A DNA stretch of 64,000 nt. It comes from Neoroseomonas terrae (GTDB lineage Bacteria; Pseudomonadota; Alphaproteobacteria; Acetobacterales; Acetobacteraceae). Made by a program: the position numbers and the translations under genes. Of this stretch, positions 12,609-14,976 are shown piece by piece. Positions within the stretch are counted from its first letter, which is position 1. The number at the start of each line of letters is the position of its first letter. Where the stretch lies: positions 124,001 to 188,000 of the forward strand of contig NZ_JAAEDI010000002.1 of NCBI RefSeq assembly GCF_018129025.1, read 5' to 3'. The notes beneath the pieces were generated by a model. The model ran no database searches and was not told the origin of the DNA. It worked only from the letters and a program-made list of their open reading frames with translations.

Positions 12609-13205
12609 TCAGCGCGCGGCCCGTTCGAGGTCGCGCACGAAGCGGGCGAACTCCGCCTCGCGCGTTGCGGGCTCGCCGCGCAGCCGCAGCAGGTAGGATG
12701 GGTGGATGGTCACGCGGACCGGCCGGCCGTCCACCTGTTGCTCTCCCCCGCGGAGCGAGGCGATGGATGCGCGGCTCCGAAGGATCGCCTGCGCGGCCGT
12801 CGCGCCGAGCGCCAGCACGCGGTGCGGGTTCACCAGCGCAATCTCCCGAACCAAGAACGGCCGGTAATGTGCAATGTCGCCCGCATCCGGGCGTTGATGC
12901 AGGCGCCTGCGGCCGGTTTGGACGAATTTGAAGTGCTTCACCGCGTTGGTGACATAGAGCGCGCCGCGCTCGATCCCCGCTTCCGCGAGCGCCCGGTCCA
13001 GCAGCCGCCCAGCCGGGCCGACGAAGGGGCGGCCGGCGCGGTCTTCCTCATCGCCGGGCTGCTCGCCGACCAGCATGAGCAACGGATCGAGCGGCCCTTC
13101 GCCCGGCACCGCCTGTGTCGCCGCCGCGGCGAGCGGTGAGGCGCAGTCCTCTCGGATCTCCTGCTGCAACGCGGCGAGCGCGGCGGCGCGTTCGGCTGGC
13201 GTCAT
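12609..13205 (-). CDS. udgX: UdgX-type uracil-DNA glycosylase, cysteine-poor variant
   Basis: A 198-aa uracil-DNA glycosylase of the family 4-like UdgX group. Seen: GEQPGDEED (47-55), FVGPAGRLLDRAL, YVTNAVKHFKF, the loop GRRRLHQRP with His103, and IHPSYLL (168-173). The RRRLH loop corresponds to the KRRIH loop of characterised UdgX, whose histidine forms a covalent bond with the DNA after uracil removal, making the enzyme a suicide trap. Oddly, there is one cysteine in the entire protein (Cys21); the positions where UdgX and family 4 enzymes carry Fe-S cluster cysteines read DCAS near residue 20 and HYRPF near 114. A 4Fe-4S cluster is therefore unlikely. It sits last in a long minus-strand run, 52 bases after the AtuA tail gene. 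Confidence 0.85.
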   Translation of the reverse strand: MTPAERAAALAALQQEIREDCASPLAAAATQAVPGEGPLDPLLMLVGEQPGDEEDRAGRPFVGPAGRLLDRALAEAGIERGALYVTNAVKHFKFVQTGRRRLHQRPDAGDIAHYRPFLVREIALVNPHRVLALGATAAQAILRSRASIASLRGGEQQVDGRPVRVTIHPSYLLRLRGEPATREAEFARFVRDLERAAR

Positions 13206-13257: not shown

Positions 13258-13590
13258 TCAGCCCGCGTCGGGGATCCGCACGGTCAGCGACAGCAGCCTG
13301 AACGACAGGCTTTTGCCGTGCCCGTCCAGGTTGAGCGAGCCGTTCACGCCGCCTTCCAGCACGTCGTCGATGACGAAGTTGAAGGCGTGGATCAGCGGCA
13401 GGTCGTACCGCACGCAGCGCGTGGCCCCGCGATGCGCGAACAGCGCCAGCACCCGGGCTTCCGTCACCTGCTCCGCCAGCACCGGATACAGTGCCGGGTC
13501 GTAGGGCATGAGCGAGATATTGCCGCGATTGCCCTTGTCCCCCGCCCGGGCATGCGCGACGGCGTGCAGTGGCACTTCCTTCAATTCCAT
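13258..13590 (-). CDS. AtuA-related C-terminal domain protein (ferredoxin-like fold)
   Basis: A small protein of 110 aa starting MELKEVPLHAVAHARAGDKG. The motif HARAGDKGNRGNISLMPYDP is typical of the domain found at the C-terminus of long AtuA/DUF1446 proteins; here it is a free-standing polypeptide. Its ATG lies inside the end of the upstream AtuA gene (10-base overlap), indicating translational coupling and probably a stoichiometric complex. Function is unproven; in Pseudomonas, AtuA is needed for acyclic terpene use, but its reaction is unknown. Confidence 0.78.
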   Translation of the reverse strand: MELKEVPLHAVAHARAGDKGNRGNISLMPYDPALYPVLAEQVTEARVLALFAHRGATRCVRYDLPLIHAFNFVIDDVLEGGVNGSLNLDGHGKSLSFRLLSLTVRIPDAG

Positions 13591-14960
13591 GCCCTTGCCT
13601 CCAGCACGCGCACCTCGATGGGCACCATCTCGCGCGGCACCAGGAAGGATCGCGTCAGCAACCGCGGCGTAACGCGCCAGCGCGCGCCGGAGGTCCCGGC
13701 CGTGCCGCAGCACAGCATCGCCAGCACCTCGCGCGCCGCCTGGTCGGCGTCGTCGCGCGTGCTGGTCTCGACGGCCAGGCGGATGCGGATATCGGGCGGT
13801 TCCGGCCCGTCATAGGACCGCCAAAGCGCTCCATCGTCGGAGTCATGCACGGCCGAGACGCCGATCAGGTCGGCCCGCGCCCGCCGCGCCAGGCCCCGCT
13901 GCTGCACGCGCTGCAACAGGACGTCGGCTGTCGCCCGCGCCCGGGCCAGCGTATTCGGCCCGGCCACCGACACCTCGCCTTCGCCCAACCATGATCCTTC
14001 GTAGCAGGCGGTCACCTTCAGCCGGTCGGGGCGAGGATGACCGCGTACCCCGCGCAGCGCGACGCGGTCGCGCCCGAGCTGTTCCATCGTCACGCCGGTG
14101 ATGTCCATGACCACGTCGGGCGTCAGATAGGCGGCGGGGTCGTGCAGCTCGTACAGAAGCTGCTCCTTCACGCTGCGCAGGTCGACGAGCCCGCCGGTAT
14201 CCCAAGGCTTGGTGATCACCATCGAGCCGTCCGGCGACACCTCGGCGATCGGGAAGCCGATATTCGCGGGGTCGGGAATGTCCTTGAAGCCAGGGTCCCA
14301 GAACACGCCGCCCGTCACCTGGGACCCGCATTCCAGCAGATGCCCGCAGGCCGCGCCGGCGGCGAGCGCCTGCCAGTCGTCCTCCGCCCAGCCGTAGTGA
14401 TGCATCAGCGGCGCGATGGCGAGCGACGGATCGGAGGTCCGTCCCGCCACCACCACCTGCGCGCCGCGCGACAGCGCCTCGGCGAGCGGCGCGGCGCCGA
14501 TATAGGCGTTGGCCGAGATCATGGTCCAGGACGACATGTCGAAGCCCGCATCGGTCTCATGCGCCGCGAGATTGCCGAGATCGACGCTGCCCGACACGTC
14601 ATCGCCGGTGACGACGCCGATGCGCAGATCCTCGATGCCGAGCCGTCGCGCCAGCCGCGCGACGCAGCGCGCCGCCGCCACCGGATTGGCCGCGCCGAAA
14701 TTACCGAGGATCGGGATCCCCGCCCGCGCGCAGTCCGCCAGGATCGGTTCCAGCAGCCGCTCCAGCATCGGTTCGTAGCCCGCCTCCGGGTCGCGCCGCT
14801 TCTCGATCTGCGCCAGCGCAATGGTGCGCTCCGCAAGGCATTCGAAGAACAGCGCTGCGGGCTTGCCGGAACGGACCAGCGCACGGACGACGGGCGGCGC
14901 CGCATCGATCCGGTCGCCGGAGAAGCCGGAGGCATTGCCCACCAGGAACAGTTCGCTCAT
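13581..14960 (-). CDS. AtuA family protein (DUF1446)
   Basis: A 459-aa AtuA/DUF1446 protein. Recognised by the glycine-rich start VGNASGFSGDR, the GNFGAANP segment, the ECGSQVTGGVFWDPGFKDI block and the TKPWDTGGLVDL block. The start at 14960 is chosen because GAAGG lies about ten bases upstream; an in-frame GTG three codons earlier lacks this. The family is named for acyclic terpene utilisation in pseudomonads but is widespread in genomes without terpene pathways, often next to acyl-CoA carboxylase or Bug genes, so the function here is unknown. It follows the Na/Pi-like gene by 16 bases and overlaps its own C-terminal partner. Confidence 0.82.
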   Translation of the reverse strand: MSELFLVGNASGFSGDRIDAAPPVVRALVRSGKPAALFFECLAERTIALAQIEKRRDPEAGYEPMLERLLEPILADCARAGIPILGNFGAANPVAAARCVARLARRLGIEDLRIGVVTGDDVSGSVDLGNLAAHETDAGFDMSSWTMISANAYIGAAPLAEALSRGAQVVVAGRTSDPSLAIAPLMHHYGWAEDDWQALAAGAACGHLLECGSQVTGGVFWDPGFKDIPDPANIGFPIAEVSPDGSMVITKPWDTGGLVDLRSVKEQLLYELHDPAAYLTPDVVMDITGVTMEQLGRDRVALRGVRGHPRPDRLKVTACYEGSWLGEGEVSVAGPNTLARARATADVLLQRVQQRGLARRARADLIGVSAVHDSDDGALWRSYDGPEPPDIRIRLAVETSTRDDADQAAREVLAMLCCGTAGTSGARWRVTPRLLTRSFLVPREMVPIEVRVLEARAWN

Positions 14961-14976
14961 GCGCAGCACACCTTCG

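Follow-up and report, generated by a model that had tools for sequence, protein, structure and literature searches.

The window, a 64,000 nt stretch of Neoroseomonas terrae DNA, encodes a UdgX family uracil-DNA-binding protein that retains the residues for uracil excision and covalent bonding to DNA, and that lacks cysteine at all three Cys ligand positions of the family's [4Fe-4S] cluster. Judged from its sequence and that of its relatives, it is probably a functional UdgX that removes uracil and then links itself covalently to the DNA through H103, without the [4Fe-4S] cluster. Moreover, it is not one odd protein: cluster-less UdgX is a branch met many times in Alphaproteobacteria, and the comparison suggests that the cluster is not needed for the covalent uracil-trap chemistry. 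The features of the gene are as follows, with equivalent residues in Mycobacterium smegmatis UdgX (MsmUdgX) given by alignment.

12609..13205, minus strand: UdgX family uracil-DNA-binding protein, cluster-less; 198 aa, ATG start (TIGR03914, PF03167, AlphaFold model)
12684..12686, minus strand: R174, equivalent to R184, which has a DNA-binding role according to parts of PMC10359453
12696..12704, minus strand: motif B HPS, residues 168-170; H168 is equivalent to H178
12864..12866, minus strand: Y114, replacing the last Cys ligand; among the 63 cluster-less loci this column is Tyr 62 times and Thr once, and it is Cys in all 231 others
12897..12911, minus strand: R-loop RRRLH, residues 99-103; R101 is equivalent to R107, and H103 to the crosslinking H109
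12924..12947, minus strand: NAVKHFKF, residues 87-94; N87 is equivalent to N91 and K90 to K94, and H91 lies in the presumed His-ligand column
13050..13067, minus strand: motif A GEQPGD, residues 47-52; E48, Q49 and D52 are equivalent to E52, Q53 and D56 (roles from parts of PMC10359453 and PMC10776899)
13137..13148, minus strand: D20-C21-A22-S23, aligned at the site of CxxC in cluster-bearing UdgX, with no Cys in either ligand column

The family assignment is supported by profile scores, motifs and fold. The UdgX family model TIGR03914 scores 249.4 bits against the 198 aa protein, above its cut-off of 189.95, and PF03167 scores 112.5 bits; the family-4 UDG models TIGR00758 (119.1 bits, cut-off 125.3) and NF040953 both score below their own cut-offs. 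The protein further departs from family 4 UDG (UdgA) in reading GEQPG, not GE(A/G)PG, in having an R-loop and in lacking the Cys ligands. Among 29 distinct sequences of solved structures that match it, the top 24 (E-values from 6e-44 to 8e-42) are UdgX entries, many of them MsmUdgX mutants by their entry titles, and family-4 enzymes come after. In particular, the protein carries the GEQPG of UdgX motif A, with Gln replacing Ala or Gly, at G47-D52; the R-loop pattern (K/R)RR(I/L)H, with the equivalents of R107 and H109, at R99-H103; and the motif B pattern HPS(S/A)(L/V)(L/V)R as HPSYLLR (168-174), where Tyr occupies the (S/A) place, as is also common in Cys-bearing relatives, and the rest matches. 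A first-pass annotation of the window had described a UdgX-like protein with GEQPGD, RRRLH, HPS and a single cysteine, and that description holds throughout; the cysteine is C21.

Structure prediction, one of the checks proposed in that annotation, yielded an AlphaFold model (ma92ae6580e46) with a pLDDT of 95.0 and a pTM of 0.91, and VIA-align matched it to the UdgX structure 6ajo with a Z of 28.6 and an rmsd of 2.0 over 189 aligned residues. The match to 5gn2, the BdiUNG of Bradyrhizobium, is weak (TM 0.56 by query length); BdiUNG belongs to the UDG superfamily, like the N. terrae protein, and we take it to have no cluster and not to be a UdgX. The prediction gives a confident UdgX fold that is weak solely around the old CxxC loop, where residues 21-30 have a mean pLDDT of 72; the block holding CxxC in the UdgX domain of the genome's own Cys-bearing paralogue has a mean of 94. 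The low value fits the view, found in parts of PMC5295032, that a cluster pins this loop.

The loss of ligands was located by aligning the protein to MsmUdgX plus 111 further rows, including one family-4-like paralogue. At the four columns compared, MsmUdgX has C-C-H-C (the CxxC pair, then the His within KHFKF and the Cys within ACRPWL) and the N. terrae protein has D20, S23, H91 and Y114, its DCAS aligning on CRGC and its HYR on ACR. The first-pass annotation had placed DCAS and HYR at these sites and noted the missing ligand cysteines, and the alignment with MsmUdgX agrees on both. Its mention of several cysteines around the 4Fe-4S cluster needs a small correction, since the UdgX ligands appear to comprise one His besides three Cys. 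We presume, consistently with its position, that the His in the column of H91 is the fourth UdgX cluster ligand. C21 was considered as a cluster ligand and rejected, as it sits between the two CxxC ligand columns and on neither. The cluster of MsmUdgX is stated in PMC10359453, yet it is absent from the motifs by which that paper separates UdgX from other UDGs. The R-loop and motif A are taken here as defining UdgX, and the protein is filed as a variant, because the ligands are missing from 63 of the 294 loci that carry the remaining UdgX motifs, this one included.

Across the 294 loci, the three Cys columns are all Cys in 231, all non-Cys in 63 and mixed in none, an all-or-none pattern that is more than chance; counted as non-identical domains, 59 of 289 are cluster-less and 230 are Cys-bearing. 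These 294 loci are the union of four overlapping samples that are not independent and include 5 identical domains, and the rows from genome_contigs are the nearest 80 of 551 relatives (16 of the 80 cluster-less), so that 63 of 294 is no frequency in nature. Less biased figures, each counting the N. terrae protein, come from the samples of the same family (35 of 111 UdgX domains cluster-less; 200 genomes), class (6 of 37; 385 genomes) and phylum (9 of 81; 398 genomes), where the family count takes rows of at least 136 bits among the matches listed, the class and phylum counts take E-values up to 1e-35, and divergent or broken UdgX members may be missed at these thresholds. Outside the class, the phylum sample holds 15 domains from 14 genomes, all of them Cys-bearing. 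The locus L319 (re-fetched from the place of L091) and the genus loci L321-L327 lie outside the 294. The first-pass annotation had portrayed a single odd protein and proposed that UdgX sequences be aligned and the cysteine-less branch mapped; the loci sampled replace the portrait with 63 cluster-less members, probably the result of three losses.

The last ligand column holds Tyr in 62 of the 63 cluster-less loci and Thr in L305, and the column of H91 holds His in 62 of the 63. A rule that Tyr is universal in the last column was discarded when the wider sample gave the Thr of L305; Tyr is not required there. L305, from another alphaproteobacterial family, reads E, T, R and T at the four ligand columns and KRFGF for KHFKF, with its R-loop and motifs A and B intact, and represents a third cluster-less kind.

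Trees were built on subsets of 146 rows (46 cluster-less and 100 Cys-bearing, with near-copies and short rows left out), 89 rows and 70 rows; the Cys-bearing rows of the latter two were hand-picked, and the 70-row tree was built with the ligand columns left out. In the 70-row tree, branch A comprises 14 rows (support 100/99) with two residues at CxxC deleted and the sequence HYRWWL, and branch B comprises 34 rows (84/85) with YRPFL; the sister of branch B is the Cys-bearing L109, the two joined with support 99/95. L305 groups with a Cys-bearing Rhodobacter row (97/84), apart from both branches. The starred branches of this tree force three changes of state, and on the 89-row set a single origin of the cluster-less kind appears in 0% of 200 bootstrap trees. 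The AU test did not reject branches A and B as one clade (p 0.167), and separate losses of A and B are therefore favoured, not proven. Overall, the trees favour three separate cluster losses, probably. Further, branch B has private residues E53, D110 and F117, with a frequency of 1.0 in 38 rows and of 0.0, rounded to two decimals, in the 230 Cys-bearing domains, and these may compensate for the loss of the cluster.

The residues of the crosslinking chemistry are kept throughout. All 63 cluster-less loci have GEQPGD together with Arg and His in the R-loop, Asn and Lys in motif 3, and His and Arg in motif B, the latter six equivalent to R107, H109, N91, K94, H178 and R184 of MsmUdgX; in 46 aligned cluster-less rows, with the N. 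terrae protein first, the equivalents of D59 and F65 are also invariant. According to parts of PMC10776899, MsmUdgX mutants give E52, D56, D59, F65, N91, K94, R107, H109 and H178 roles in excision or crosslinking; parts of PMC10359453 assign R184 to DNA binding, report unchanged complex formation for Q53A and credit Q53 with shaping the R-loop. The conservation of these residues in the N. terrae protein and in all 63 cluster-less loci fits a chemistry that survives without the cluster. The first-pass annotation had raised this possibility, which is thus partly supported and likely correct in substance. H103 would bond C1' of the abasic sugar, as H109 does in MsmUdgX. The cluster of the UdgX fold would be structural, pinning the N-terminal CxxC loop to the core; its ligand site would have been dismantled as a unit, and the Tyr in the last ligand column probably packs into the emptied site. 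We infer both the absence of any metal and the crosslinking activity. In the cell, the protein may shield uracil or abasic sites, by extension of a proposal for UdgX in PMC10359453, and the loss of the cluster could have changed its substrate range or rate.

Four other explanations compete with a working, cluster-less UdgX. The best placed of them, though unlikely, is that the cluster-less proteins have reverted to ordinary turnover glycosylases that do not crosslink: single changes of H109 in MsmUdgX yield such enzymes (parts of PMC10359453), but none of the 63 cluster-less loci has lost the equivalents of H109, R107, Q53 or E52, and it is the family-4-like paralogues (20 rows) that have no R-loop. 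It is more doubtful still that a cluster or other metal remains bound by other ligands, such as H91, Y114, D20 and C21, or with a partner protein. The H91 kept in all but one of the cluster-less loci speaks for such a site; however, H91 belongs to the motif NAVKHFK and may owe its retention to something else, two residues at CxxC are missing from branch A, and L305 has lost the His too. Moreover, from query residue 18 onward Cys is entirely absent from 50 of the 59 non-identical cluster-less domains (the N. terrae protein itself has one), and a Cys-held cluster is therefore impossible in those.

That the protein is catalytically dead and acts solely by binding uracil-DNA or abasic DNA is just as doubtful as a cluster held by other ligands; nothing direct speaks for it beyond the fact that a lost cofactor site can mark a lost function, and against it stand the excision and crosslinking residues of MsmUdgX, invariant in the 63, and the constraint on the cluster-less domains, which in disjoint pairs resembles that on their Cys-bearing relatives. 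For the cluster-less domains, 17 disjoint pairs with low dS have a median dN/dS ratio of 0.235 (range 0.058-0.884, none above 1), and 32 Cys-bearing pairs chosen in the same way have a median of 0.231. This mechanically drawn set was used instead of 12 earlier pairs (0.031-0.295), which were drawn largely from the lowest ratios and were biased. When all low-dS pairs are taken, the cluster-less median of 0.473 (n=194) exceeds the Cys-bearing median of 0.313 (n=95), with ratios up to 0.967; over all pairs with dS of 0.15-1.5, the cluster-less median is 0.49 (1670 pairs) and the Cys-bearing median 0.42 (18857 pairs). The high ratios come from distant pairs of these GC-rich genes, where dS looks compressed. 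All ratios were computed on relatives, as the N. terrae protein has no close enough relative (highest identity 67% among the matches listed). In the disjoint pairs, the constraint on cluster-less domains looks as strong as on Cys-bearing ones, and the ratios are as expected of working proteins under like constraint.

The weakest explanation, a decaying pseudogene made redundant by the Cys-bearing UdgX fusion of the same genome, gains from the presence of that copy beside its radical-SAM partner and from the patchiness of the cluster-less kind in the genus (3 of 35 genomes), but is very improbable given the open frame, the 249 bits to TIGR03914, the retention of all named catalytic residues, and the dN/dS of 0.107 in the same-genus pair L321/L322, a pair from the set picked largely from the lowest ratios.

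The N. terrae genome has four UDG-superfamily genes: the gene studied here, a TIGR03915-UdgX fusion on contig C5, a family-4-like gene that is short of cluster ligands, and one gene on contig C4. The fusion keeps C-C-H-C and follows a TIGR03916 radical-SAM gene, and its UdgX domain is 54% identical to the N. terrae protein over query residues 5-195; the protein, by contrast, is standalone and has lost the ligand cysteines. A lack of iron-sulfur assembly in the host was rejected as the cause of cluster loss, as the same genome keeps this Cys-bearing UdgX by the radical-SAM gene. Across 35 genomes of the genus, the cluster-less kind occurs in three and the Cys-bearing kind in six, and both occur together in the N. 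terrae genome alone. With resemblance to the N-terminal region of this genome's own fusion as the criterion for fusion to TIGR03915, 37 of 51 classified cluster-less rows were fused, 10 standalone and 4 unclear, as were 118, 25 and 26 of 169 Cys-bearing rows. For example, the cluster-less fusion of Pararoseomonas L006 follows a TIGR03916 gene, and the cluster-less domain therefore occurs in the same setting as the Cys-bearing fusion.

The N. terrae gene has AtuA-like and SGL genes as neighbours. Upstream on the same strand are an AtuA gene and an ORF with an AtuA ferredoxin-like domain (13258-14969, minus strand), the nearer one ending 52 bases before the UdgX start, and two tandem SMP-30/gluconolactonase-like genes (both PF08450; 10575-12606, plus strand) run towards the end of the UdgX gene. 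Ten neighbouring ORFs were scanned: one is without a Pfam match, and the other nine are AtuA-like, SGL, transport, kinase or TIM-barrel genes. With this content the neighbours were rejected as an explanation of the gene. A DnaN-like (beta clamp) ORF adjoins the cluster-less UdgX in seven of seven Roseomonas-like loci (L003, L004, L005, L008, L014, L103 and L110), whose rows form their own group (100/97) beside the N. terrae protein and two genus relatives, though the join to the N. terrae protein is weak (83/60). No DnaN-like neighbour was seen at the N. terrae gene or at L321 and L322, of which 2.1 and 3.6 kb were read. L004 and L005, the two inspected, also have a large UvrD-like helicase carrying a PD-(D/E)XK nuclease domain nearby.

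Among known systems, MsmUdgX (6ajo, 6ail, 6iod and others) shares with the N. terrae protein the fold, GEQPGD, the R-loop with its crosslinking His, HPS and the residues tested by mutation (parts of PMC10776899 and PMC10359453); the difference is at three of the [4Fe-4S] ligand columns, all Cys in MsmUdgX and D, S and Y in the N. terrae protein. Parts of PMC11078426 and PMC5295032 cite Trasvina-Arenas 2016 for members of the DNA glycosylase MutY that lack [4Fe-4S] ligands. Like UdgX, then, MutY would be a glycosylase family in which some members are short of cluster ligands, but its fold and chemistry are other. We know of no covalent trap in MutY. In two family-4 UDGs, mutants with Ser in place of Cys lost about 40% of their activity, and the cluster is credited with stabilising a loop (parts of PMC5295032). 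Since cluster-less MutY and these mutants precede it, the cluster-less UdgX is a new form of a known theme, not a new kind.

Family-4-like UDG paralogues in the same bacterial family are also short of cluster ligands. At the four columns, the rows L082, L230-L240 and L242-L249 read FS-F in 7 of 20, with Phe last, and FC-C in 13 of 20. Unlike the N. terrae protein, these paralogues have no R-loop, GEAPG or GEGPG in motif A and HPA in motif B, motifs by which they appear to be ordinary UDGs.

In the literature searched on UdgX and UDG clusters, no mention of a UdgX without a cluster was found; the original 2015 paper and the 2019 structure papers were outside that search. We hold it somewhat better than an even chance that the covalent trap is fully separable from the cluster, that the two were separated about three times in Alphaproteobacteria with the whole Cys set lost each time and Tyr installed in two branches, and that the outcome is a metal-free, oxygen-insensitive crosslinker, which in the DnaN-linked group may serve the replication fork. 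UdgX, unlike other UDGs, bonds itself to its product site (parts of PMC10359453), has been used for detecting uracil in DNA (parts of PMC8070346) and is reported to have been tried in base editors. Should natural members prove to work cluster-free, the cluster would be structural in the UdgX family, a point relevant to why certain glycosylases have one, and such members would also supply small cofactor-free traps whose expression in eukaryotic cells requires no iron-sulfur assembly. Given the all-or-nothing pattern (63 cluster-less loci, 231 Cys-bearing, none mixed), natural pairs can be used to test the question, among them the two kinds in the N. terrae genome.

A viral origin of the cluster-less kind was considered and rejected: two relatives turned up when viral contigs were scanned once with the alignment of cluster-less rows, of which L330 has the Cys ligands and L331 is 30% identical and was unrecovered by phmmer. 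L330 (73-594 on a contig of a viral collection) encodes a Cys-bearing UdgX with 56% identity near the contig end, and may be host DNA or a prophage.
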